Virus record (IMG/VR): IMGVR_UViG_3300047472_000161
Location: 1-48,494 of that record
Length of the DNA stretch: 48,494 nt
Source of the DNA: a virus
Reading direction: 5' to 3' (one strand)
Program-made: the position numbers and the translations under genes
The notes under the pieces: model-generated
Databases searched by the model: none
The model's input: only the letters and a program-made list of their open reading frames with translations
Told to the model about the DNA's origin: nothing
Shown here: piece after piece, positions 6,800 to 47,347 of the stretch
How the letters are laid out: each line of letters opens with the position of its first letter
How positions within the stretch are numbered: the stretch's first letter is position 1

Positions 6800-7519
6800 C
6801 TACACCCGGCGGCCGACCCAAATAACGCGCCCGACGACATGCACGTCCTCGCGTGCAACGACCTGCGGTTTGATGTTTGGGTTGTCGGAGATCAGCTCAT
6901 ATCCGACCTTAGGCAGCACGCGAACGCGCTTGATCAACCCCGCATCTTCGATCCGTAGCGCCCAGATCCGATCGCTCTGATTGATCCTGTTTTGAGCCGT
7001 ATCGATCAGCACCGCGTCATCGTTGATGAGCGTCGGTTGCATGCTGTCCCCATCTCCTCGGGCCACGAAAAGCGCGTCGGCAGGTGACGAGGTGAGCGCG
7101 CGCCGCATGTTCCGGTTGAACGGCATTTGGCCTGTCTCGGGGAAATCCTCCAAGTGCGATCCGTTGCCCATCGCAAAGCGCATATCGACTTCACGGATCA
7201 TCTCCACGTCATCGGCAACCGCAGGGGGGAAGTCGGGCTCAGGCGAAACTTTCCGGGCTGGCGCTTCCTCGGATCGCTTGGGCTTGGCCGCCTCGTGGGC
7301 CTCTTCAATGGCCTGGCGCACGAACGGGAACCATACCGGAACACCCTTGTGCTTCTTCATCTCAAGCTGCTGGATGCTCTGGTACTGGAGCGCCTTGCCG
7401 CCGGCAGCCTTCCACAGGCGCGAGGCCGCGTCGGCCACCTCCTCCTGAGATAACCCAAGCGCCTCGCGCTTATCCTTCGCCCATTGCGAGACGTAATCGA
7501 TTGATTCCCAGACGTTCAT
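6800..7519 (-). CDS. cI: CI-like repressor: XRE HTH plus S24 peptidase domain
   Basis: A 239-residue LexA/CI-type repressor that keeps the prophage silent. The N-terminus holds an XRE-like HTH (LGLSQEEVADAASRLW, about 21-36). The C-terminal S24 peptidase fold shows the catalytic Ser159 in GDGDSMQPTL and Lys197 in LIKRVRV. The start at 7519 has AGGA upstream; the longer frame runs into the operators. No obvious Ala-Gly cleavage site is seen in the linker. Cleavage on SOS induction is therefore expected from the family but not certain. Confidence 0.93.
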   Translation of the reverse strand: MNVWESIDYVSQWAKDKREALGLSQEEVADAASRLWKAAGGKALQYQSIQQLEMKKHKGVPVWFPFVRQAIEEAHEAAKPKRSEEAPARKVSPEPDFPPAVADDVEMIREVDMRFAMGNGSHLEDFPETGQMPFNRNMRRALTSSPADALFVARGDGDSMQPTLINDDAVLIDTAQNRINQSDRIWALRIEDAGLIKRVRVLPKVGYELISDNPNIKPQVVAREDVHVVGRVIWVGRRV

Positions 7520-7531
7520 GGGGGGCGATCC

Positions 7532-7592
7532 TACAAACCATTTGTGGGACGCACCTCCACAAAGTTCTTGTGCTACAAACAAGGTTCTTGTA
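7532..7592. promoter_or_regulatory. Right operators (OR) between cI and cro
   Basis: Three 15-bp sites: 7532-7546 (TACAAACCATTTGTG), 7558-7572 (CACAAAGTTCTTGTG, perfect CACAA/TTGTG arms) and 7578-7592 (AACAAGGTTCTTGTA). Centres are 26 and 20 bp apart. The shared consensus is roughly NACAA-N5-TTGTR. On the plus strand TTGTGC (7569-7574), 16 bases, then TATCCA (7591-7596) is a candidate cro promoter overlapping the last two sites. Confidence 0.75.
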
Positions 7593-7602
7593 TCCAAGCA
7601 CA

Positions 7603-7839
7603 ATGAGCCACGCCGCATTCAAACGCGCCCTCGCCCACTTCGGCGATAAGCAGACCGAGATGGCCAAAGCTATCGGCACGTCGCAACAGCGGATTTCCTA
7701 CATTCTCGCGAAGGAAAACGCCTGCCCGGCCGATCTGGCGCCGGCCGTTTCGCGAGCCACGGGCATCCCGCTTCATGAACTTAGGCCGGATGTATTCAAG
7801 CGCCCCCGTTCGGCGAAGGCCGCACAGGTGGCCGCATGA
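7603..7839 (+). CDS. Cro/YdaS-like transcriptional regulator
   Basis: A 78-residue HTH protein starting MSHAAFKRALAHFGDKQTEM. The motif DKQTEMAKAIGTSQQRISYIL is followed by the YdaS-typical LAPAVSRATGIPLHELRPDVF. It diverges from cI across the operators and should act as Cro, repressing cI in the lytic state. No ribosome-binding site precedes the ATG, and the candidate -10 (TATCCA) ends only seven bases upstream, so a leaderless mRNA is likely. Confidence 0.85.
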   Translation: MSHAAFKRALAHFGDKQTEMAKAIGTSQQRISYILAKENACPADLAPAVSRATGIPLHELRPDVFKRPRSAKAAQVAA

Positions 7840-13447: not shown

Positions 13448-13746
13448 GCAAGTTCCCGTGGCGCGAAGCCGACTACTATCTCGTCGCCTTCAATGACGAT
13501 CAGCGCGTCGTGTCTGGCCCGGTCAAGGTCGGCGGGACGATGGACGTTATAGGGTTCTCCGGCACAGTGAAGGTGGTCGCGTACCACGATGGCAAGCGCG
13601 TGCTGGCGGGGCACATCCCGAATGGCATGGGCATGCCAGTGATGAACGGAGATTCCGTCACCATCAATCCGCCAACAACGAAAACACAGGTGATCGTGCA
13701 TCTTCGCGACCTGTTCGGGTTCGATGGTGTCTGGGGCAACGCTTGA
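13444..13746 (+). CDS. 100-aa protein between terS and terL
   Basis: Starts at GTG 13444 (SKFPWREADYYLVAFNDDQRV). It is beta-rich with no helical segments or motifs that I recognise. It is coupled by GTGA and TTGA overlaps on the two sides, so it is surely part of the packaging operon. It may be a small packaging accessory or decoration-like protein. Confidence 0.65.
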   Translation: MSKFPWREADYYLVAFNDDQRVVSGPVKVGGTMDVIGFSGTVKVVAYHDGKRVLAGHIPNGMGMPVMNGDSVTINPPTTKTQVIVHLRDLFGFDGVWGNA

Positions 13747-22458: not shown

Positions 22459-22932
22459 ATGCGCCATCTCCGATACCTCGTTCTCTCGCTGGCGGCCCTT
22501 CCCGCCATCGCCATTGCTGCGACACCGCCCGTTCTCGGGACGTGGAAGGACGCGGCCGGCAACGTGCAGCAGACGATCGGCACGACCTGCCTGAACGCCG
22601 ACAACACCCCCTGCACTTCGGGCGGCGGCTCCGGGGGAACCCCCGTTGCGGCCACGGCGACCACCACCAGCGTCACCGGCTCGGCCTCAGCCGTCACCCT
22701 GCTCGCAGCCAACACCAACCGCACCGGCGCGAGCATCACGAACGACAGCGCGGCGATCCTCTACATCCTGCTCGGCACGGGCACGGTGTCAGCGACCAAT
22801 TACACCTATGCGATCGATGCCAAGTCGACCGTCCCCGGCGTGGTCGAGATCCCCGCCGACTGGCACGGCATCATCACCGGCATCTGGGCCAGCGCAACCG
22901 GCGCGGCGCGTGTCACCGAGCGGAGCCAGTAA
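22459..22932 (+). CDS. Secreted or virion protein with signal peptide, 157 aa
   Basis: Begins MRHLRYLVLSLAALPAIAIA, a clear Sec signal peptide cleaved near AIA-AT. The mature part is Thr/Ser/Gly-rich and beta-structured (TATTTSVTGSASAVTLLAANTNRTG, then ILYILLGTGTVSATN). Such small beta domains often decorate capsids or tails, but a signal peptide on a virion protein is unusual, so periplasmic export is possible. It overlaps the SGNH hydrolase gene (TAATG). Confidence 0.7.
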   Translation: MRHLRYLVLSLAALPAIAIAATPPVLGTWKDAAGNVQQTIGTTCLNADNTPCTSGGGSGGTPVAATATTTSVTGSASAVTLLAANTNRTGASITNDSAAILYILLGTGTVSATNYTYAIDAKSTVPGVVEIPADWHGIITGIWASATGAARVTERSQ

Positions 22933-24161
22933 TGGCGAGCCCCATCGTCCAGCCTCCCGGTAGTGGCATCCTCGATCCCCGCATCAACGTTCGCCCGGCC
23001 TCACTGCGCCAGGTCACGAACCGCTGCTTTCTGCCCGGCAACTATTCCGCGACGCTCGCGATGTTCGGCCGCTCGTGGCAGATGAGCTATGTCCCGGTCA
23101 CCGCGCTCAAGATCGCGATCCCCAACTGGTATGTGAACACGACCACGGGCGGCGAGACGGGCTTCGGCGGCACGCTGACCGCCACGGCATCGGTCGAGTA
23201 CCCCAAGGGCACGCTCACCCGGATCACCTTCAACAACGGGGGCACCTCGGGCACGACGGCCGACTTCACCACCCTGTGGTCGGACCTGACCCAGCTTGGC
23301 TTCACGATCCCCGCTTTCACGCCGTTTCGCCTCGCGATCGACATGTCGAACCCCGTCGGGCTGGCGAACCACAACTATGCCTTCGCATGTGACCGTGGGC
23401 GCGGCGACGAGTTCGCCTATAACGGCGCCGACAACACGATGAACACGACCGTTGCGGGGGCGGGCACCACCTCCGCCTATTACCCGGCCGCCGTGCTCGC
23501 GCTCTCCGACCGCAATGTCTGGGCGGTGATCGGTGACAGCCTCTCGGCCGGCATCAACGAGACGATCACCGACCCGTGCGGCGGCCGCGGCTTCGCAGGC
23601 CGTGCGCTGGCGAAGTTCGGCCCGCACCTCAACTATGGCGTGCCCGGCGATTACGCGCAGTGGTTCGTCGCGGGCCATGCGCGCAGGCTGGAGTTGATCC
23701 AGGCGGCCGGCGTGACGTCGATGCTGAACCTCTACGGCTCGAACGATATCTACAACGGTCGGACCTCGGCCCAGCTTATCGCCGATCGCGCCACGATCCG
23801 GGGCTACCTGCCGGGGGTCAACGTCTACGATGGCACGGTCACGCCGCGCACCTCCAGCACGGATGGCTGGAAGACGGCTGCGAACCAGACGATCAGCAAC
23901 ACCACGACGAATACCCAGCGCACGACCTTCAACGCGGCGGTGCGTGCAGGCCTGTCGGGCTCGCCGGGCTTCGTCGACATCGCCGCGCATGTCGAGACGT
24001 CTACGACGGACGAGTTCGGTCCGGTGCTAGATGGCGGCGTCCTGATCCCTCGCCTGTTGCGCAAGGCCGACGGCACCGCACCGGATGGCGTCCACCTGGG
24101 CACCGAGGGCTATCGCTCACTGGAGCCCCTGTTTTCCTCGCTTCTGGCGGTGACGCGATGA
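22932..24161 (+). CDS. SGNH/GDSL-family hydrolase
   Basis: A 409-residue protein. After about 195 residues of beta-rich N-terminal domain comes an SGNH hydrolase with the block I nucleophile Ser203 (VIGDSLSAG), a block II Gly in NYGVPGD, block III GSND (269-272) and block V Asp385/His388 (DGVHLGTEGYR). SGNH enzymes remove acetyl or acyl groups from polysaccharides. Placed between head and connector genes, it is probably virion-associated and acts on acetylated capsule or exopolysaccharide. No signal peptide is seen. Confidence 0.85.
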   Translation: MASPIVQPPGSGILDPRINVRPASLRQVTNRCFLPGNYSATLAMFGRSWQMSYVPVTALKIAIPNWYVNTTTGGETGFGGTLTATASVEYPKGTLTRITFNNGGTSGTTADFTTLWSDLTQLGFTIPAFTPFRLAIDMSNPVGLANHNYAFACDRGRGDEFAYNGADNTMNTTVAGAGTTSAYYPAAVLALSDRNVWAVIGDSLSAGINETITDPCGGRGFAGRALAKFGPHLNYGVPGDYAQWFVAGHARRLELIQAAGVTSMLNLYGSNDIYNGRTSAQLIADRATIRGYLPGVNVYDGTVTPRTSSTDGWKTAANQTISNTTTNTQRTTFNAAVRAGLSGSPGFVDIAAHVETSTTDEFGPVLDGGVLIPRLLRKADGTAPDGVHLGTEGYRSLEPLFSSLLAVTR

Positions 24162-36044: not shown

Positions 36045-36401
36045 ATGGCGGCCCCTTACGACATCCATCTCCAGCGCAATGATGATTGGCAGGCGGGCTG
36101 GACGATCCGCCAGCGCGACGTCCCCGTGGACCTCACCGATTGCGTCCTCGCCGGCCATGTCCGCGCCCCGCTCGACAACACGACGCTGATCGCCTCGTTC
36201 GACATCGAGATCACAGACGCGCTGAACGGTGAAGCGACGCTGACACTGAAGGCGTCGGAGGGCTCGCCTCTCAATGCTGTGGGCAACGCGATCCAGGTGG
36301 CACGCCTGCCCTACGACATCCGCCTGACCTACCCGGACGGCCTGCACCTCGTCCTCGTCACGGGCCACGTCATCCTCAGCCGAGGGAACACCCACCTATG
36401 A
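36045..36401 (+). CDS. 118-aa baseplate/fibre accessory protein
   Basis: Begins MAAPYDIHLQRNDDWQAGWT; the core DVPVDLTDCVLAGHVRAPLD and TLTLKASEGSPLNAVGNAIQ resembles small BppU-like or baseplate N-terminal domains found before spikes. It overlaps the spike gene by four bases, so the two are likely partners. Confidence 0.7.
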   Translation: MAAPYDIHLQRNDDWQAGWTIRQRDVPVDLTDCVLAGHVRAPLDNTTLIASFDIEITDALNGEATLTLKASEGSPLNAVGNAIQVARLPYDIRLTYPDGLHLVLVTGHVILSRGNTHL

Positions 36402-38608
36402 GCGGCGGCATCTCGATCAAGGTTGAGGGCCCGCGTGTCGTTCTCGACATCGGCGCCGGGCGTGGCGCGAGTGGTGCAAGCGCGTATCAGGCGTGGCTCG
36501 CAGCGGGCAACTCGGGTTCGGTCTCCGACTTCATCGGCGATGTGAACTACCAGACGTGGCTGTCGGTCGGGAATGTCGGCACCAAGGCCGACTTCCTCAA
36601 CAGCATGAAGGGCGCGCCGGGGCCGGGCCTTAACAACCGCGACCAATGGGTCAGCGGCACGACCTACACCTCCAGCGACTACGTGTTCGCGGACGATGGC
36701 AACGGCGGTCAGGCGATGTATGTCGCGCGCGGCGTGGCCGGGCACACGTTCGTATCGACGCTGCCTCCGAAGAACGACGCAAGCAACTGGAACAAGCTGA
36801 GCGCACCGCAGGGGCCTCCGGGCACGACCGCGCTCACCACCGATTGGGGCGATGGCACGGCCACGGATAAGGCTCCGGTGGTGGCGTTGGTGCAGTCCAA
36901 GCTCAATGGCAAGGCGGATGCCTCGGCGCTGGCCGGCAAGCTCGACGGAACCACCGCTGCGGTGATCGGCAAGCTGGGGTTCAATCCCATCCCGCGCGCC
37001 ACCTTCGACGCGGCTCCGGCCCTAATCCTGCCTGCCAACACGCCGATGCTGGATATTTCCGGCAAGAGCGTCGCCGGCGACTATGGGGATGCCGCCTATC
37101 GGCTGGTGGCGACCGAGCCAAGCCATCCCGGCAAGATCCAGATCGGCGGATCAAGCGGCCCATGGTACGAACTCATCAGCGACTTTGCCCGCCCGGATCG
37201 CTTCATTCGCACCGGCGACACGGACGACAGCGCGTCGTGGAACCGGGCCCGCGATTGGATGGTCGCCAAGAACGTGCTGGCGTTTCAGCTTGAATCCCGT
37301 CCTTATGACATCAGTAGCGGGCAGGTTTCCTTTAACGGCATCGCGGCCCAAATCATCGGATCCGGCTATACCGAATGCGGCAACGTCAATGGCTGGAACG
37401 CCAACATGACGGCGTTCGGCAACGCCGCGAAAGGGACGTGGGTGCGTGCAGGCGCAACCGGCTTCCGCGCACTCACCTTCTCGGGCTCCAACGCTGACGC
37501 GCGCGGCGCGCGGATCGATCGCCTCGGCTTCGTACAGACGCACGCGAACCCGACCGCCGGCTGGGCGCCGACCAACTATGACTACCTGATCGAGAACGAC
37601 AATACCTTCGGCGGCATGACGGTCGGCGACGTGATGTTCCTCGGCATCAACAAGGGCATCCACTGCGACCAGAGCGGGCGGCTGACCCTCGAATATTTCA
37701 AGGGGCAGTTCTACCGGGAGGGGCTGTATCTCGACCGAGCGCTCGACAGTACCTTCGTCCCTCGGATGCAGATTTGGACCTTCAACGGCCTGCCCGACCC
37801 GGTCGCGACATGGCAGGCTGCGAATGCAAAGGTCTTCCGTCTGTTCCGATGCGACGGACTGTTTGGCGGCACTGGCTTCGCCCTCGGAGTCAACACGACG
37901 CTGGAGCTGAACTCCAATGCCAACGGCTGGCCGACCGATATCCATTGGAGCAAACTGTGGTCTGACGTTTCCCAGTACGGCATCTACAACAATGCCGCTG
38001 GCGGCGCGCGCGTGACAATCCTGGATTTCGTTGGCCAGTGCGAAAACTATGCAAGCCACACGGGAGCTGCCCTTCCGAATAGCTATGGCTATTATGGAAC
38101 GTCAGGCAGCGGAGGCGGGCTGATCACGCTCGGCAATTGCCGTTTCCAGCGCTTCTCAGGTGCCGGCATTTACAATGCTTCAAACACGACCGTCCTCGTT
38201 ACCGGCGTGACGGTCGCTGATAACCATGCGGGTGCCAAAATTTTCTCGGCGCCGGGCGGTAAGCCGATTCAGATTTCGAACCCGTACTACCTTGTCGACG
38301 ATGGCACAGGATCGGTCGGCGTCCGCGGCACGGATTATGTGCTGCCTTCCGGCGATCAAACGTATTATTTTAGCGGATTCTGCGACGGCTCTGGTGTGGC
38401 GAGTTTTAGCCATGGTTTGGGAGCGAACGCCCGGACGTATCTGCGTGATGCCTTCGCGATTGTGAAGGGCAACAGCGGCGAGGCTGTCGCAATGACCATG
38501 GGCAGCATGGACGGCTCCGGGATCAACTTCTCGTCGAATGCGATCTATGCCGGCCGCGCATACCGGGCTCGTCTGACGGTTGCGCCAGACATTGGAGCCT
38601 CGTGGTAG
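36398..38608 (+). CDS. Tailspike / tail fibre protein, 736 aa
   Basis: Receptor-binding protein. The N-terminus has two YxxWLxxGNxGS repeats (YQAWLAAGNSGS, YQTWLSVGNVGT) and collagen-like GAPGPG and QGPPGTT, as in fibre shafts. It is followed by a ChiC-like NRDQWVSGTTYTSSDYV module. Residues 220-650 show the Asn/Gly-rich pattern of a right-handed beta-helix (pectate lyase fold) tailspike. It could depolymerise host polysaccharide; no active site is assigned. Confidence 0.85.
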   Translation: MSGGISIKVEGPRVVLDIGAGRGASGASAYQAWLAAGNSGSVSDFIGDVNYQTWLSVGNVGTKADFLNSMKGAPGPGLNNRDQWVSGTTYTSSDYVFADDGNGGQAMYVARGVAGHTFVSTLPPKNDASNWNKLSAPQGPPGTTALTTDWGDGTATDKAPVVALVQSKLNGKADASALAGKLDGTTAAVIGKLGFNPIPRATFDAAPALILPANTPMLDISGKSVAGDYGDAAYRLVATEPSHPGKIQIGGSSGPWYELISDFARPDRFIRTGDTDDSASWNRARDWMVAKNVLAFQLESRPYDISSGQVSFNGIAAQIIGSGYTECGNVNGWNANMTAFGNAAKGTWVRAGATGFRALTFSGSNADARGARIDRLGFVQTHANPTAGWAPTNYDYLIENDNTFGGMTVGDVMFLGINKGIHCDQSGRLTLEYFKGQFYREGLYLDRALDSTFVPRMQIWTFNGLPDPVATWQAANAKVFRLFRCDGLFGGTGFALGVNTTLELNSNANGWPTDIHWSKLWSDVSQYGIYNNAAGGARVTILDFVGQCENYASHTGAALPNSYGYYGTSGSGGGLITLGNCRFQRFSGAGIYNASNTTVLVTGVTVADNHAGAKIFSAPGGKPIQISNPYYLVDDGTGSVGVRGTDYVLPSGDQTYYFSGFCDGSGVASFSHGLGANARTYLRDAFAIVKGNSGEAVAMTMGSMDGSGINFSSNAIYAGRAYRARLTVAPDIGASW

Positions 38609-38628: not shown

Positions 38629-38859
38629 TTAGGCCGGCCGAGGTCTCTGCGGAGGCGATGAAACGATCTCGTCGATCGCACCCTTGATTAGCAACTGCAC
38701 GCGCCCCTGTTCCTCGGCCGACCCGGCGTAGGTCGCGGCCTCGTCCATCACCGCCCCGATCTGGCGCAGATCTCGCTCGTCCACTACGCCACGTCGCTGA
38801 AGCGAGCTCATCAACTGAAGGATGCCATGAAGAGCGGCGGATTCCATAGAGTTCGTCAC
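38629..38859 (-). CDS. 76-aa helical protein at the end of the island
   Basis: GTG at 38859, preceded by AAGGAGG at seven bases, begins (V)TNSMESAALHGILQLMSSLQ. Helical; GVVDERDLRQIGAVMDEAAT is a likely helical hairpin. It is the last gene of the minus-strand island and converges on the spike gene. Unknown function. Confidence 0.65.
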   Translation of the reverse strand: MTNSMESAALHGILQLMSSLQRRGVVDERDLRQIGAVMDEAATYAGSAEEQGRVQLLIKGAIDEIVSSPPQRPRPA

Positions 38860-38861
38860 CC

Positions 38862-39974
38862 TCAATCCTCCTTCACCCACTGATCGGTCCAATGGATCTG
38901 CACGGCATGAATGTCGATGTCTTGGTGTTCATCGATAGAAACGCGAACTTCGGTCTGATCGACATCGCGAGGCAGTGAGAAGCGGTGCTCAACCAGCAAT
39001 CCCTTGGTCGGCGCCGTCAGCGTTTCATCGCCCTTGGCCCAAGTCACGGTAGCCTCATCCGACACAACATCGCTCGCGACCCGGATCGGTGCGCCGTTCC
39101 GTGATGGTCGGGCCTCCCCGAACACGCGAGCAAAATAGTTGCCGGCTTTCAGGGGCATATATGGGCCGTAGACAAGCGTCCCCGGCCGACCTGTCGAGCG
39201 GATCGCGGAGAACTGTTTGTTGCCAACGGCGGTGCGCAGTCTCGGATGACCAGCCCTGAAATAGTATCCCGGGCCAACGTCGGCGCGAGCGTCCCGCCTG
39301 CCGCGCATAATGCCGTCGACCTCCGCCTTGATGTCGGCATACCGGGTCTGAAAGTCAGGAGACTTTGAGCGAAGCCGCTGCCGAATGAAGGGGCCGTGAT
39401 TGGTGTAACCAGAGTTCGCGACCTCAAAGACGAAAGAGTCCCCTAGCCCGCGCGTCTCCACCATGTCACGGAGGATATCGTACAATATCCACTGATCGTC
39501 CGGGATGCTCTGGCTCCAGATGGTGGCATGCAGGAAATCTTGGTCGGGGATGTCCTCGACCCTCCGCCAATATTTCTGGATTAGGTCATGTGCGACTGCG
39601 TGAGACAAGTTTAGCGCAAAACCCCCAGCATTGATGTCATAACCATGTTCCGATGCACAGAAGCCGGAGAAAATGCCTGCGTACTGCCCTTTGTCGGACA
39701 GGTAATGGCGCACGTCGAAGTCCATGTCACCAATGAACGCATCTGCATCAAGATAATAGACCCAGCCTCGGACCCCTCGATCAAGCATCTCCTTCAGCAT
39801 GTAGACGCGGTTATAGGTGGACTGCCACGCCATATGGCCGCGCTTCACCCCGACGAAGCTCTCATATTTAAATCCATTGCGGATGCAGAACTGCCGCACC
39901 GTACGCGAGGTTTGATGCAGCATCGGATAATAGAAAACCGGGTCTGCGGTCTGGATGAAGGTGATGTCTGTCAT
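38862..39974 (-). CDS. Glycosyltransferase-like protein with C-terminal beta domain
   Basis: A 370-residue protein. The N-terminal 220 residues look like a GT-A fold transferase: FIQTADPVFYYPMLHQTSRT, WQSTYNRVYMLKEMLDRG, the DxD motif in WVYYLDADAFIGDMDF (Asp76, Asp78) and INAGGFALNLSHAV, as in GMA12/MNN10-type galactosyl/mannosyl transferases. The C-terminal 110 residues (VRVSIDEHQDIDIHAVQIHW) form a beta-sandwich that may bind carbohydrate. Target unknown: host surface glycan or virion protein. Confidence 0.8.
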   Translation of the reverse strand: MTDITFIQTADPVFYYPMLHQTSRTVRQFCIRNGFKYESFVGVKRGHMAWQSTYNRVYMLKEMLDRGVRGWVYYLDADAFIGDMDFDVRHYLSDKGQYAGIFSGFCASEHGYDINAGGFALNLSHAVAHDLIQKYWRRVEDIPDQDFLHATIWSQSIPDDQWILYDILRDMVETRGLGDSFVFEVANSGYTNHGPFIRQRLRSKSPDFQTRYADIKAEVDGIMRGRRDARADVGPGYYFRAGHPRLRTAVGNKQFSAIRSTGRPGTLVYGPYMPLKAGNYFARVFGEARPSRNGAPIRVASDVVSDEATVTWAKGDETLTAPTKGLLVEHRFSLPRDVDQTEVRVSIDEHQDIDIHAVQIHWTDQWVKED

Positions 39975-39982
39975 GGTGGCGA

Positions 39983-40711
39983 TTAGCCTTTGCGGCCAAT
40001 GATGAACGCGCCGTGATAGCCGCCATGATTGCTATGCTGGACAGTGAAGCGCCCGATCCCAGCCTTATAAAGCATAGCCATGATCTGGTTCAGATCATAG
40101 TCGTACATCATCATCGTTCCCGAACCCGGCGCGGTCTCAATGAGCGTCTTCATCCGCTCTCCGTCCCACGACACATAATCCATGCCGAGACCGCCCATGG
40201 TGACAGCGCCGCGCTCCTTGAAGGTCGTGAACTGCACGGTCACACCGCCGCCAGGCGCCAGCTTGTCGAGCAGCTTCTGGAACAAGGGCAAGCCGTTGGC
40301 CGGATGGATGTGCTGGAACACGATAGTCGAGTTGATCCAATCGACCCGATCGGCAGGAATCTCATCAATCGTCTCATGGATGCTGACGTTGCCAGGAACA
40401 TTCTTGCGGGCCTCCGCACGCATTCCCTCGGCGACATCGACGCCATAGACTTTATCGGCTACCTCAGCCATGGCGCAGCACAGGCGCCCAGCGCCACAGC
40501 CAAAATCGATCGCGGACTTCGGGCTGAAGGCGCCATAATGCCCCCGGAGCACTTCGAGTTGCCACGCGATGTCGGCCCGGCCGGTTGCCCAGAAATGCTC
40601 GATCCGCTCAGGCGTCAGATTCTCGCGGAAATATTCCACATGGCTAAACACGCCATAATAAGGCTCGCCAGCGATGCCCTGCCAATCTTCGTCCGTGTTT
40701 CTAACAGCCAT
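39983..40711 (-). CDS. SAM-dependent methyltransferase, class I
   Basis: A 242-residue methyltransferase with motif I SAIDFGCGAGRLCCAMAE (67-84), then KVYGVDVAEGMRAEARKNVP and the post-motif DWINSTIVFQHIHPANGL. The N-terminus (EPYYGVFSHVEYFRENLTPE) recalls methyltransferases of glycan-decorating clusters. It lies between two further sugar-modifying genes. GGAG precedes the ATG. Confidence 0.85.
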   Translation of the reverse strand: MAVRNTDEDWQGIAGEPYYGVFSHVEYFRENLTPERIEHFWATGRADIAWQLEVLRGHYGAFSPKSAIDFGCGAGRLCCAMAEVADKVYGVDVAEGMRAEARKNVPGNVSIHETIDEIPADRVDWINSTIVFQHIHPANGLPLFQKLLDKLAPGGGVTVQFTTFKERGAVTMGGLGMDYVSWDGERMKTLIETAPGSGTMMMYDYDLNQIMAMLYKAGIGRFTVQHSNHGGYHGAFIIGRKG

Positions 40712-40771
40712 TTACGCAACTCCGAAATTTGGGCGCAACATAGCCAGCACCCTCGGCGGCGCAAGCGGGGT

Positions 40772-41083
40772 TCAATGGGCAGTTGGAACCGCCAACCGAA
40801 CATCCGGCCGATCGATCACGATGAGAGGCAGGCACCGTTCCGGCGGCAGCGTCCCGTCCATCACTTCCGGCGGTATCGGCTCTCGCAGCGCGAAGTCGGC
40901 ACCGGCTTCTATCGGAAGCCGCTTACGGTCCAACCCTTCGATGCAGATCATGCGAGCGGGAATCCTGTACTGCTCGCCCTTCGCCACCAGCCATTCAGGC
41001 ACGATCCAGAGCCAGTCCTGGTGCGTGATCAAATCGCACTCCAGGACATATTCCCCAACTGCTACAAGTGCTCGCCTGACCAT
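40772..41083 (-). CDS. 103-aa hypothetical protein of the island
   Basis: Begins MVRRALVAVGEYVLECDLIT; DWLWIVPEWLVAKGEQYRIPARMICIEGL suggests a compact alpha/beta domain. The first gene downstream of the repeat at 41113. No family recognised. Confidence 0.65.
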   Translation of the reverse strand: MVRRALVAVGEYVLECDLITHQDWLWIVPEWLVAKGEQYRIPARMICIEGLDRKRLPIEAGADFALREPIPPEVMDGTLPPERCLPLIVIDRPDVRLAVPTAH

Positions 41084-41112
41084 GGCGCACCCTTACGTGC
41101 GTGCTTGCGCTT

Positions 41113-41144
41113 CGCAAGCGAACTTCGGTTGCGATAATTACCGC
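41113..41144 (-). promoter_or_regulatory. 32-bp repeat, copy A (likely island promoter)
   Basis: Shares 28 of 32 bases with 42333-42364. Both start CGCAAGCGAACTTC and end GATAATTxCCGC on the plus strand. Each copy lies 30-50 bases upstream of the start of a minus-strand island gene, so a shared promoter/operator is the simplest reading. Confidence 0.6.
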
Positions 41145-41217
41145 AGTACGAGAGCGGCGTCAGCAGGACCCGCCGCAGCCTCGCGTCGCGCTCATTCGCG
41201 CTACGAACGACTAAGCC

Positions 41218-41247
41218 GCCGCCGGTTTTGAAATCTCGGCCGGCGGC
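41218..41247 (-). terminator. Hairpin behind the FkbM gene
   Basis: GCCGCCGG pairs perfectly with CCGGCGGC over a 14-base loop, just past the stop at 41260 in minus orientation. No T run follows; it may be a weak or Rho-assisted terminator. The rest of the 41084-41259 gap holds the repeat at 41113 and no reading frame that I support. Confidence 0.4.
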
Positions 41248-41259
41248 ATGTGTATCAGC

Positions 41260-42285
41260 TCAGAGCATAGGGTTGCGCCAGACATGCGTGCCATCACAGC
41301 GAAGATGCTCTTCACCGTTGGTCCGGTCAAAGCGCGCGGGCTGCTCGTTCTCCAAACGCCAGCCATGAGACTGCAAATCCCGAATGATGCGGAACTCTGC
41401 CTCGCGGCTGTGGGTGCCCACCACCATGTAACGGACGCGTTCGGTGAGAAAGTCGAGCGCCCCCCCGATCACATCGGCCTCGGCTCCCTGTACGTCGAAA
41501 TGGATCAGATCGACGACCTTCTCGTCCTTGAGCAGCGTCGGGATGCTGATACTCTTCACCATATCATAGCCGTCGCGCGGCTCAGGCGTCTCCGAGAAGA
41601 GGGCGGACTCGCCCCAGTCGCCAAGCACGTCAATCTGTGGAAACAGCGCGTAGCCATCCTTTGCACCAGCAACCGCGGCATGGATGTTGTGGAACGACGG
41701 ATCAAAGCCGTTGTCGGCGAAGTTGATCTTCAGGTTCTCAACGCGCCCGGCGCTGCCCTCCACTGCATAGAGGCGGATCGGGCCGCGGCGGATCTGGCGG
41801 GCTAGCACGCCGCCGTTCACACACCAGGTTCCGAGGCCGGCACCAAGCTCGGCCATCACGAATGGGCCGATCCCAGCCTCGACGGCCTTGATCGTGCCGA
41901 CATACTCAATTGGCTCTGCCACAAAATCGCCGATGCGCGTTGGGATGTCGTTGAACACCCTGCCGCCGAGATCGCGAGTGACGGTGGTAAGCGCAGCGCG
42001 AGTGCGACCGCCGATGAAATTGTTGATGTAGTCCGGGTCATGCGGCGCAGGGGCCAACCGCCGGCGCATCAGATCTTCGTCCCCGAGCGAAAGACCATGG
42101 GCAAGGAGGTCGACGTGCGGCTGAAACCGGGCAACGAACTCTTGACACGCGACTGTCGACCGAAGGGCCTCCGAGAGGCTGAGCCCAGACGAAGCATGTG
42201 CCTTGACGACAGCATCGCTCTCGGGCTCGCGGCCAAGCACGCCACGATAGACTTCTCGGACCAGATCTTCGGTAAACTGTACCAC
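41260..42285 (-). CDS. DUF4214-FkbM methyltransferase
   Basis: A 341-residue fusion. Residues 3-55 (EDLVREVYRGVLGREPES, LSLSEALRSTVACQEF) match DUF4214, a small domain found in surface and S-layer-related proteins. The rest is an FkbM methyltransferase with motif I VMAELGAGLGTWCVN (143-157), LYAVEGSAGRVENLKINF and IHFDVQGAEADVIGGAL, family hallmarks. FkbM enzymes O-methylate sugars and macrolides, so sugar methylation is likely here. Its upstream repeat (42333) suggests independent expression. Confidence 0.88.
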   Translation of the reverse strand: MVQFTEDLVREVYRGVLGREPESDAVVKAHASSGLSLSEALRSTVACQEFVARFQPHVDLLAHGLSLGDEDLMRRRLAPAPHDPDYINNFIGGRTRAALTTVTRDLGGRVFNDIPTRIGDFVAEPIEYVGTIKAVEAGIGPFVMAELGAGLGTWCVNGGVLARQIRRGPIRLYAVEGSAGRVENLKINFADNGFDPSFHNIHAAVAGAKDGYALFPQIDVLGDWGESALFSETPEPRDGYDMVKSISIPTLLKDEKVVDLIHFDVQGAEADVIGGALDFLTERVRYMVVGTHSREAEFRIIRDLQSHGWRLENEQPARFDRTNGEEHLRCDGTHVWRNPML

Positions 42286-42332
42286 GCGAACTCTCCCAAA
42301 TATTTGCTCACCCTACCCTGCCGGGCGTGCCG

Positions 42333-42364
42333 CGCAAGCGAACTTCAGTCGGGATAATTCCCGC
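42333..42364 (-). promoter_or_regulatory. 32-bp repeat, copy B (likely island promoter)
   Basis: Partner of copy A at 41113-41144 with four mismatches. It is 48-79 bases upstream of the FkbM gene start at 42285 and next to a late promoter-like element facing the opposite way. Confidence 0.6.
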
Positions 42365-42430: not shown

Positions 42431-42511
42431 ATGATCGCCCTGACATCAGTAGAGCGCGCGCGCTTGATCGCAGAGCGTCGCGCCATGCTCACGCAGTCCG
42501 ACATCCGATGA
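42431..42511 (+). CDS. 26-aa leader peptide or tiny gene before the lysis operon
   Basis: Reads MIALTSVERARLIAERRAML and ends TQSDIR. Its ATG lies 14 bases from a late-element box, and its stop overlaps the next ATG (ATGA). That coupling suggests it is translated from a leaderless mRNA and passes ribosomes to the membrane-protein gene. Function unknown. Confidence 0.55.
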   Translation: MIALTSVERARLIAERRAMLTQSDIR

Positions 42512-43080
42512 CGCACGCCGCGACCCTAGGCGCGAAGATCGCGGCGATCAGCACAACGTTCTCGCCGTATCCCGCCAGCTTCAACGGCAATCCGTGGCTC
42601 TACGGCATGTCGCTAGCCTCCCTCATGGCGATCACGATGTTCAGCGCGATCGTCTGCGGCTGGATGATGCGCGACATCTGGCGGGACCGGTTCAACGACC
42701 ACCCGACCACGCCCGTCTTCCTGTTCCGGCTCATGGTCGCGATCATCAGCTTCACGGCCTTCCTGCGGTGCCTGCCCGAGGTCGCCTACATGACCTGCTA
42801 CGGCGAGGTGACTGGTGACACGATGGGCCAGATCCTCACTGTCAAGCGCATGGCGGATGTCATCGCCCTACCGCTGGTCGTCGGCTGGATGACCATCCTG
42901 GTGCTGGTCTATCCATTCGTGACGCTCGCCCTGAAAGCGCACCGCCAGCTTGGAATCGGCTTCGTCGATCCGCTCGGCGTCTGGCCCCGACTTGTTCGGC
43001 CGGTCGCCATCCTGTTCACGATCCTTGTGATTGCGTCGCTTATGGCTGCGGCGAAAGGGTCCATGGGCCATGGTGTGTGA
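42508..43080 (+). CDS. 190-aa polytopic membrane protein
   Basis: Four predicted transmembrane helices (about residues 35-55, 70-88, 118-140, 163-182). Between helices are YMTCYGEVTGDTMGQIL and KAHRQLGIGFVDPLGVW. Sits at the head of the lysis block; could be a holin-like or accessory membrane protein. No family recognised. Confidence 0.7.
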   Translation: MTHAATLGAKIAAISTTFSPYPASFNGNPWLYGMSLASLMAITMFSAIVCGWMMRDIWRDRFNDHPTTPVFLFRLMVAIISFTAFLRCLPEVAYMTCYGEVTGDTMGQILTVKRMADVIALPLVVGWMTILVLVYPFVTLALKAHRQLGIGFVDPLGVWPRLVRPVAILFTILVIASLMAAAKGSMGHGV

Positions 43081-43454
43081 GCGATCTACCCGCCCGCACC
43101 GCTGCCCTTGCCTGCACCGGTTGCGTCAGCGTCATCGGCCTCGACTTTCAGGCTGCGCCGGTCCTGATCGGGCTGTCCGCCGCCTTCCTCGTGCGGGTGC
43201 CGCTGATCAAGCCCAAGGGTCGGCTGGTGTCGGAAGCGTCCTTCACGCTGCTCGGGATGCTCGGGGCCTTCGTGACGATCGTCGATCAGAAGATCGGTCC
43301 AGGCCCGGCGTTCTGGACCGGCATCGGATTCGGCGCGGTGTCGGCGTCCCTCGCCGAGCTGGGCAAATCTGCGATGTACGGCGCGTTTCAGGAGCGGTTG
43401 CAGGCTGCCGGCCGCGCGCTGCTCGGGCTCAGCGGGGGAGCGCCTAAGCCGTGA
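43077..43454 (+). CDS. Small membrane protein, holin-like
   Basis: A 125-residue protein starting at GTG 43077 (SDLPARTAALACTGCVSVIG). Two or three hydrophobic helices (VLIGLSAAFLVRVPLI; FTLLGMLGAFVTIV; FWTGIGFGAVSASLAEL) with a short basic tail. Position immediately before the lysozyme gene suggests a holin or antiholin role. It overlaps the lysozyme gene by four bases. Confidence 0.65.
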   Translation: MSDLPARTAALACTGCVSVIGLDFQAAPVLIGLSAAFLVRVPLIKPKGRLVSEASFTLLGMLGAFVTIVDQKIGPGPAFWTGIGFGAVSASLAELGKSAMYGAFQERLQAAGRALLGLSGGAPKP

Positions 43455-43903
43455 CCCCAGCCGAACAGCAGGCCCTCGCTTATACCGACCACGACCTCGA
43501 CACCGACGAGGGCACGATCCCCTACGTCTATCTGGATCACCTCGGGTTTCAGACGATCGGGCGCGGCATCCTCGTGGACCGGCGCAAGGGCGGCAAGCTG
43601 CTCCCCGAGGAGATCGCCTTCATCAACCAGAACCGGCTCAAGCGGGTGCTGGCGGGCGTGCAGGGCGAGCCCTGGTATCCGTCCGTGGCCAACGACCCGG
43701 TGCGGCTCGCGGCCATCCTCAACATGCAGTTCCAGTTGGGAAGCGAGAGCGACGAGGAGTTCGTCTCCTCCTTCGCCTGCATCGCGAAGCGCGACTGGAT
43801 CGGCGCCGGCAAGAACCTCCGCGCATCGCTGTGGGCGAGCAAGCAGACACCAGCTCGCGCGAACCGCGTCATCACCGCCATCGAAACAGGGAAACGGCCA
43901 TGA
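43451..43903 (+). CDS. Endolysin, GH24 (T4-type) lysozyme
   Basis: A 150-residue muramidase. The catalytic triad is Glu20 (DEGTIPY), Asp29 (LDHLG) and Thr35 (QTIGRG), with the same 9- and 6-residue spacing as T4 lysozyme Glu11-Asp20-Thr26. No signal peptide, so it depends on a holin. Starts at GTG 43451. Confidence 0.92.
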   Translation: MTPAEQQALAYTDHDLDTDEGTIPYVYLDHLGFQTIGRGILVDRRKGGKLLPEEIAFINQNRLKRVLAGVQGEPWYPSVANDPVRLAAILNMQFQLGSESDEEFVSSFACIAKRDWIGAGKNLRASLWASKQTPARANRVITAIETGKRP

Positions 43904-46158: not shown

Positions 46159-47166
46159 TTAGGCGCTTAATCGCTCGACCAGAGACACGACAACGCGGGC
46201 CTCGTCGACATAGCGAGCGCGGATCTCGGCGATCTTCGCGGCGGTCCATCCGATCACGCGGGCGATCTGCTCGTCGGTCAGCCCCTTCGACGCAAGGAAG
46301 GTGACGTAGCTCCCGCGCAGGTCATGAATGGTCCGGTCGAAGCCGGTGGGCTTTCTGCGCTGCCAGACCGTCTCCAGCCCGCTTTCGGTCCACGCCTTGC
46401 CCCGGCTGTTGAGGAGGACGGCGCCATCCTTCCGCCCGATCTCGTCGAGCAGGGTCTGAAGCTCCGGCAGGATCGGTATGACAGCCCGGCCGCCGCGCTT
46501 GCGGGTCTTCTCGATCGTGATCTGCTTATCGAACACCTGCGCCCATTCCAGATGCACCAGATCGCCAAGCCGGAGCCCCGTGAGGCTCGCCAGCTTCAAA
46601 GCTGTCATCACGTGCGCCGGGAAGTCCTTCAGCCCCTCCACGGCCTTCCAGTGGCGCTCCTCCCAAATCTGATCGGACTTGTCAGCGGTGTGGAGCAGTT
46701 CGATGCCGTGGCAGAAATGGCGCTCCAGCTTGCCGTTCTCGGTCGCCCAGTTGAGGATCGTCACCATCATGACCGTGGCCTTGTCAGCCGATCGAGGCTG
46801 AGCCGCCCACTGGTTGCGCCATTCGATCACGTCGCCGCGCATCCGCCAGTCAGTGAACGCGCCGAGCGGGGTTTCGCCGAATCGCTGGGAAATGCGGGTG
46901 AGCCACAACCGATAGTCGCGCTTCGTCTGGTCGCGCAGCTTCAGATATTTCGGGCTCTTCTCATAATCCGCGATCAGGCTGTCGACCGTGTTCCCGCTGG
47001 TGCCGAAGGCGGTTCCCTGGGCCTTGTATTGCGCGTCTAGAAGCTCGCGGGTGACGACCGGCTTGGCCCCATCCTGCTGGAGGATGCAGGGGCCGCCACG
47101 CCATGCGTACACATAATGCCGAACGCCACCTTTCCGGGGCTTACTGACGATGTGCAGGCCGGTCAC
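46159..47166 (-). CDS. int: Tyrosine integrase
   Basis: A 335-residue recombinase that would join attP and the host tRNA site. N-terminal Arm-binding domain, then a core-binding helical domain (SPKYLKLRDQTKRDYRLWLT), then the catalytic part: Arg in SLTGLRLGDLVHLEW, Lys in TRKRGGRAVI, HDLR in TIHDLRGSY, and Tyr in ARYVDEA with the IGWT block before it. GTG 47166 is chosen because AAGGA is eight bases upstream; ATG 47202 is an alternative. Last gene of the left operon. Confidence 0.92.
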   Translation of the reverse strand: MTGLHIVSKPRKGGVRHYVYAWRGGPCILQQDGAKPVVTRELLDAQYKAQGTAFGTSGNTVDSLIADYEKSPKYLKLRDQTKRDYRLWLTRISQRFGETPLGAFTDWRMRGDVIEWRNQWAAQPRSADKATVMMVTILNWATENGKLERHFCHGIELLHTADKSDQIWEERHWKAVEGLKDFPAHVMTALKLASLTGLRLGDLVHLEWAQVFDKQITIEKTRKRGGRAVIPILPELQTLLDEIGRKDGAVLLNSRGKAWTESGLETVWQRRKPTGFDRTIHDLRGSYVTFLASKGLTDEQIARVIGWTAAKIAEIRARYVDEARVVVSLVERLSA

Positions 47167-47347
47167 GATTCTGGTCCTTCGCCTTCCAGCGGTCATATTC
47201 ACTCTCTGCTCGCGATTCTCCCGGCGGATGGACGGTCACCCCATCTGACCGGATGTCAACCGGCCCGATCGGCAAGCCGTATCTGCGGAACACGTCGAGG
47301 ACGCTTTCGACCTCGCTGACGGGCACGAGGCGGCGCTTCGTGGTCAT
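47141..47347 (-). CDS. 68-aa protein upstream of int, possible excisionase
   Basis: Begins MTTKRRLVPVSEVESVLDVFRR and contains GLPIGPVDIRSDGVTVHPP, a pattern common in small genes just before alphaproteobacterial phage integrases. Basic ends; DNA binding plausible. Overlaps int by 26 bases. The excisionase call is positional. Confidence 0.6.
   Translation of the reverse strand: MTTKRRLVPVSEVESVLDVFRRYGLPIGPVDIRSDGVTVHPPGESRAESEYDRWKAKDQNRDRPAHRQ

Follow-up and report, generated by a model that had tools for sequence, protein, structure and literature searches.

A candidate lysogenic-conversion cassette of glycan-modification genes beside the tailspike gene of a temperate phage

We found that a temperate virus carries, between its tailspike-like and lysis genes, an inverted island of genes whose functional class, glycan modification, is well supported by comparison with related proteins and gene clusters. 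Our preferred reading, to which we give a probability of roughly 0.6, is that the island is a lysogenic-conversion cassette, occupying a cargo slot that alphaproteobacterial temperate phages have between their tailspike and lysis genes. The window, by which we mean the whole stretch of DNA that was analysed, is the complete IMG/VR virus record IMGVR_UViG_3300047472_000161 (48,494 bases).

The island and its phage

The window encodes a tyrosine integrase (46159..47202, minus strand; Pfam Phage_integrase, 2.8e-9) and an S24-type repressor (6800..7618, minus strand; Pfam Peptidase_S24, 3e-16), and because both are present we regard the virus as temperate, which is the lifestyle expected of the carrier of a lysogenic-conversion cassette. 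Its terminase is 79–82% identical to terminases in several Novosphingobium genomes, which makes a sphingomonad bacterium the probable host. The late genes, which begin with the terminase at 13743 and extend through a tailspike-like gene ending at 38608, are on the plus strand, and the lysis genes share this orientation. The left marker of the slot is this tailspike or tail-fibre-like gene (36398..38608, plus strand, 736 aa), which matches PHROG tail families (1e-12 and 5e-8) and, weakly, a Pfam beta-helix family, and whose product is probably the host-gripping protein. The right marker is the lysis block (42508..43903, plus strand), comprising membrane proteins of 190 and 125 aa and an endolysin/lysozyme-like protein of 150 aa, which was recognised from hydrophobic segments and PHROG endolysin and tail lysozyme matches.

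Between these markers are four genes on the minus strand and probably a fifth, all opposed to the late genes, and the inverted island that an earlier note had described from the letters of this DNA is therefore real. Read in the direction of the minus strand, they encode an FkbM methyltransferase with a GTG start and a divergent DUF4214-like N-terminus (41260..42285, 341 aa), a small protein of 103 aa (40772..41083), a class I SAM-dependent methyltransferase (39983..40711, 242 aa) and a GT34-like glycosyltransferase with a separate C-terminal module (38862..39974, 370 aa). The likely fifth gene, taken from the list of open reading frames (38629..38847, minus strand), has its ATG shortly past the glycosyltransferase stop and would encode 72 aa from that codon or 87 aa from a TTG at 38892; its GC3 is 0.73, and searches that included Pfam and PHROG found no homologue. 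The island as a whole has a GC content of 0.593 compared to 0.648 in the late genes, and a GC3 of 0.68–0.73 compared to 0.83 ± 0.045.

A repeated element of about 32 bp, which the same note had assigned to the island as its own upstream sequence, was recovered in two copies, one of which precedes the 103-aa gene by about 30 bases (41113..41144, minus strand) and the other the FkbM gene by about 48 bases (42333..42364, minus strand). The repeat exceeds chance (0 matches in 100 shuffles), and a third, weaker copy, degenerate and partial, lies upstream of the class I methyltransferase gene (40756..40779, minus strand). The element may serve two units as promoter or operator, or it may be a relic of stepwise insertion. 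The promoter scan found no minus-strand sigma-70 promoter at the element, which is no convincing candidate for one. The element was not found in IMG/VR, and a host-wide promoter is unsupported given only two matches, each with 2 mismatches, in 200 sphingomonad-family genomes. An RNA hairpin was rejected, as the copies, read from their sequence, would pair in different registers (z −0.47 and −1.94). The two putative units would consist of FkbM alone and of the 103-aa gene, the methyltransferase, the glycosyltransferase and the small gene.

That the island is embedded among the late genes, with the spike gene on one side and the lysis genes on the other, is what would be expected if the same surface change were made during infection, masking receptors in the lytic phase such that released progeny avoid debris and infected cells. 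Such a use has been proposed for small O-antigen-modifying phage proteins (PMC12373910), but the island is inverted to the late operon, so that the late transcript would supply no sense RNA for it, and it has upstream elements of its own; we consider lytic-phase masking unlikely.

Enzyme families and their bacterial relatives

Judged by homology, the island enzymes are drawn from bacterial gene pools, and two of the three belong to polysaccharide families. Both the families and the genomic relatives are consistent with the surface-polysaccharide enzymes expected in a conversion cassette, and chromosomal and plasmid relatives of the glycosyltransferase and of FkbM occur in alphaproteobacterial polysaccharide and polysaccharide-export clusters.

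The glycosyltransferase scores 15.3 bits against Pfam GT34 (PF05637), below the cut-off of 23. D76-A-D78, N115-x-G117 and D160-Q161 are nonetheless invariant across the 13 aligned sequences formed by this protein and 12 bacterial relatives, and we take conserved DxD, NxG and DQ positions to be marks of GT34-like enzymes. Its tail (about residues 240–364) is a separate module, shared without the catalytic part with other glycosyltransferase-type proteins, among them a plasmid-borne DUF6492 protein of Sphingobium. The proposal of a DxD glycosyltransferase with a beta-sandwich tail thus holds for the DxD motif and the separate tail module, whose beta-sandwich fold is conjectural; single-sequence AlphaFold returned unusable models (pLDDT 34 for the glycosyltransferase, 40 for FkbM).

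Relatives of the glycosyltransferase were present in 16 of 398 host-family genomes, the best being a sphingomonad protein with 45% identity over glycosyltransferase residues 4–360. The annotated sphingomonad clusters in which relatives lie (L180, L187 and L189) hold an ABC-2 permease, a Wzz-type protein and large glycosyltransferases, together with methyltransferase-GT34 fusions and type I secretion genes. These ABC-exporter clusters share the GT34-like and FkbM families with the island, at up to 45% identity for the glycosyltransferase, but unlike the island they are chromosomal and come with an exporter and many glycosyltransferases. They were chosen for holding glycosyltransferase relatives, such that the methyltransferase relatives found in two of them are partly ascertained. 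Several of the host glycosyltransferases end in DUF4214, whereas that of the phage ends in another module.

FkbM lies above the family cut-offs of both Pfam PF05050 (1.4e-9, 38.8 bits, cut-off 22.7) and TIGR01444 (3.8e-12, 46.9 bits, cut-off 37.7). Its N-terminus gave no match to Pfam DUF4214 (PF13946) and a borderline one to a DUF4214 profile built in this analysis (E 0.055 against 20,179 ORFs), but it is 50% identical over 54 residues to an ORF (L235:10000-10989) that itself scores 3e-4 with that profile, and by transitivity this sequence likeness makes it a divergent DUF4214 relative. What had been read as a DUF4214-FkbM fusion is accordingly secure in its FkbM part, with a head that belongs near DUF4214 below the Pfam cut-off. 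The best FkbM match in the 398 genomes (37% identity), from a search run independently of the choice of glycosyltransferase clusters, is a gene in one of the polysaccharide clusters with a glycosyltransferase relative (G307), and in Novosphingobium PhB165 only about 5 kb separates a relative of FkbM from one of the glycosyltransferase tail. The substrates of FkbM enzymes are diverse.

The class I methyltransferase matches Pfam Methyltransf_25 (4e-11, 43.9 bits, cut-off 27), which bears out its predicted class. An 83% identical twin is encoded in a sphingomonad-family chromosome, and the likeness in DNA (82% identity) is confined to the ORF, suggesting capture. The closest relatives (83% and 66%) are stand-alone chromosomal genes outside polysaccharide clusters, and because the twin stands alone the link of this enzyme to polysaccharide is weaker than that of the glycosyltransferase and FkbM. 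One relative (L234) adjoins what appear, from their sequence, to be capsule-export genes; a scan with the methyltransferase alignment gave mostly distant generic matches. The 103-aa protein has two sphingomonad-family homologues at about 34% identity.

Some phages glycosylate and methylate their own DNA, a general precedent under which the glycosyltransferase and methyltransferases would protect phage DNA against restriction. Neither methyltransferase convincingly matches a DNA methyltransferase family, the relatives of the glycosyltransferase and FkbM are polysaccharide genes, and the island enzymes are encoded apart from the replication genes, all of which makes DNA modification barely credible as an account of the island.

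Among phages, no close DNA relatives of the island were found. The glycosyltransferase and class I methyltransferase have no relatives in phage records and the 103-aa protein no homologues there, viral scans with single island proteins were empty, and a viral scan with the glycosyltransferase alignment found one weak viral locus; a PDB sequence search was uninformative. The fusion had been called uncommon in phages, and at E ≤ 0.01 FkbM indeed matched only 1 of 50,697 phage records, that of phiLM21, in an alignment that begins at residue 31 and so skips most of the DUF4214-like head, which limits what the count says about the fusion itself.

The slot beside the tail fibre in related phages

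The survey covered 25 related phages and prophages whose fibre end was readable, and in each we examined the stretch that follows the final tail-fibre gene, counting a slot as filled when the fibre-adjacent gene was inverted and at least 200 aa long. Slots were filled in 5 of the 25, and all five cassettes were of glycan type, making six of six with the window included, a small sample in which the gene calls of the relatives come from ORF maps. The slots contain FkbM in phiLM21, Acyl_transf_3 and a Wzy_C-like protein in L129, Acyl_transf_3 in L139, GT2 and a methyltransferase in L144, and a methyltransferase, DUF1796 and GT34 in L145, with endolysin or lysis-type genes on the far side of the cassettes. 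As a control, among 114 other right-arm genes of these relatives no glycosyltransferase, FkbM or acyltransferase-3 family had at least two members; the tally covered families of that size, with 39 single-member families outside it. Three further loci (L133, L134 and L138) were left out because they represent the wrong contig, a different prophage or a different gene order. Because phage records contain no relative of the L139 acyltransferase at 1e-15, the survey was not widened through it.

The slot genes are mostly non-homologous, and the only clear relative of a window gene is FkbM of the Sinorhizobium phage phiLM21 (gp46), which occupies the same slot in the same inverted orientation at 31% identity; phiLM21 differs from the window in carrying this single gene, with neither glycosyltransferase nor class I methyltransferase beside it. 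No meaningful alignment was obtained between the glycosyltransferases of the window and L145 or between the methyltransferases of the window and L144. The L145 glycosyltransferase was rejected as a close relative, the two being related at superfamily level only (hhalign E 4e-6). A comparable order occurs in prophage Phi3LM21, where, in the passages covered of a 2017 paper, tail fibre p48, FkbM p49 and chitinase p51 place FkbM by number between tail fibre and chitinase (PMC5537653). The same passages call the FkbM proteins of phiLM21 and Phi3LM21 unrelated and contain no discussion of a slot, and a limited literature check found no earlier description of an inverted slot adjacent to the spike.

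Low GC3 and the ORF-limited match to a chromosomal gene make the island look recently acquired, as would be the case for passenger genes that benefit the host, for example through surface properties or stress, and have no role in phage exclusion. The same functional class, however, recurs at this one spike-adjacent site in six phages, although the genes found there are mostly unrelated, and we regard a mere passenger role as quite unlikely.

The earlier note had offered lysogenic conversion of the host surface or glycosylation of the spike, and while the glycan class stood up, through the clusters of the relatives and the slot cassettes, the evidence favours the host surface over the spike. 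A scheme in which the enzymes add sugars and methyl groups to the tailspike, or to a different virion protein, would fit the adjoining spike gene and the type I secretion genes near some glycosyltransferase relatives. Relatives of the glycosyltransferase and FkbM sit in polysaccharide-export clusters, however, and the slots of L129 and L139 hold acyltransferases that, unlike the island enzymes, are membrane proteins, and in L129 also a Wzy-like protein, which are ill-suited to modifying a virion protein in the cytoplasm; a virion target is thus improbable.

Proposed mechanism and known systems

Under lysogenic conversion, the prophage would express the island through the island's own minus-strand units, and the soluble enzymes so made would have as their cytoplasmic target a lipid-linked host polysaccharide of the kind that ABC exporters handle. 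A sugar would be attached by the GT34-like enzyme, and sugars would be methylated, possibly at the end of the chain, by the class I methyltransferase and by FkbM. Once exported, the polysaccharide would differ at the site recognised by the neighbouring spike, such that the lysogen is shielded from superinfection or progeny are kept from sticking to debris. Expression in the lysogen, the substrate, the order of reactions and the effect on adsorption are all projected here from homology and position. We favour decoration or capping before export because the island enzymes have no predicted membrane segments and ABC-exporter pathways finish their polysaccharide in the cytoplasm, where such enzymes could reach it.

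Methyl end-caps control the length and export of ABC-dependent O-antigens, and WbdD of E. coli O8/O9a, which caps a polysaccharide made in the cytoplasm and exported by an ABC transporter, offers a possible analogy for capping by the phage (PMC3482155). A bolder version, which we hold to be doubtful, is that the slot is a dedicated exchange site of temperate phages of alphaproteobacteria in which spike and receptor-altering genes travel together, and that in this phage the glycosyltransferase and both methyltransferases end-cap an ABC-exported polysaccharide, altering chain end and length at once by a route distinct from Gtr glucosylation and O-acetylation.

In Shigella serotype conversion, temperate-phage genes expressed from the prophage alter the host surface polysaccharide (PMC3851460). 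The role proposed for the island resembles that of the Shigella cassettes (gtrA-gtrB-gtr(type), and oac of Sf6), likewise polysaccharide-altering genes of temperate phages. A gtr cluster lies beside int-attP and joins a type-specific glucosyltransferase to GtrA and GtrB, which bring glucose through the membrane; our scans found no Gtr family. The island differs in having no recognised gtrA or gtrB, in enzymes that look cytoplasmic, and in pairing methyltransferases with a GT34-like enzyme. The Shigella genes adjoin int-attP, whereas the island lies between tailspike and lysis genes, the latter separating it from int.

Phage conversion of surface polysaccharide has long been described (PMC3851460), and the kind of system is therefore already known. 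The present case stands apart in its set of enzymes, in apparently lacking a flippase, in its host group and in the recurring inverted slot beside the spike. Surface-sugar conversion is known mostly from enteric phages with Gtr glucosyltransferases and acetyltransferases. If our reading is right, conversion would extend to sphingomonads and rhizobia through cassettes of soluble glycosyltransferases and methyltransferases, receptor-altering genes in related phages could be located by a simple rule, as inverted genes directly after the spike, and the specificity of the spike would have a testable link to the change in its receptor.

Candidate enzymes in the window

Among the head and tail genes, an ORF at 22542-24161 carries the SGNH-esterase-like motifs GDSLSAG and GSNDIY and, judged from its sequence, possibly encodes a virion esterase. 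A minus-strand ORF of 239 aa at 1333-2052, with a GGPPCQQTS motif, looks like a DNA cytosine methyltransferase, likewise judged from its sequence alone.

Further genes in related phages

In a Novosphingobium prophage, an inverted alpha/beta-hydrolase-type gene (comparison stretch L117:3326-4375) lies rightward of the genes that come after the fibre, a position that is possibly a second cargo site. The right arm of related phages holds ATP-dependent DNA ligase genes (L149:17311-18240 and NC_029046.1 49750-50742).

DUF4214 fusions in alphaproteobacterial glycan clusters

In glycan clusters of alphaproteobacteria, DUF4214 occurs fused to GT34-like enzymes, to methyltransferases of the FkbM and class I types, and to a GT9 protein. 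These fusion proteins were located at L184:13042-14163, L231:11264-14593, L112:161-5050 and, in a sphingomonad polysaccharide cluster, L189:9718-10671; type I secretion genes adjoin some of the fusion genes in this set. DUF4214 may be a docking module common to one glycan system.
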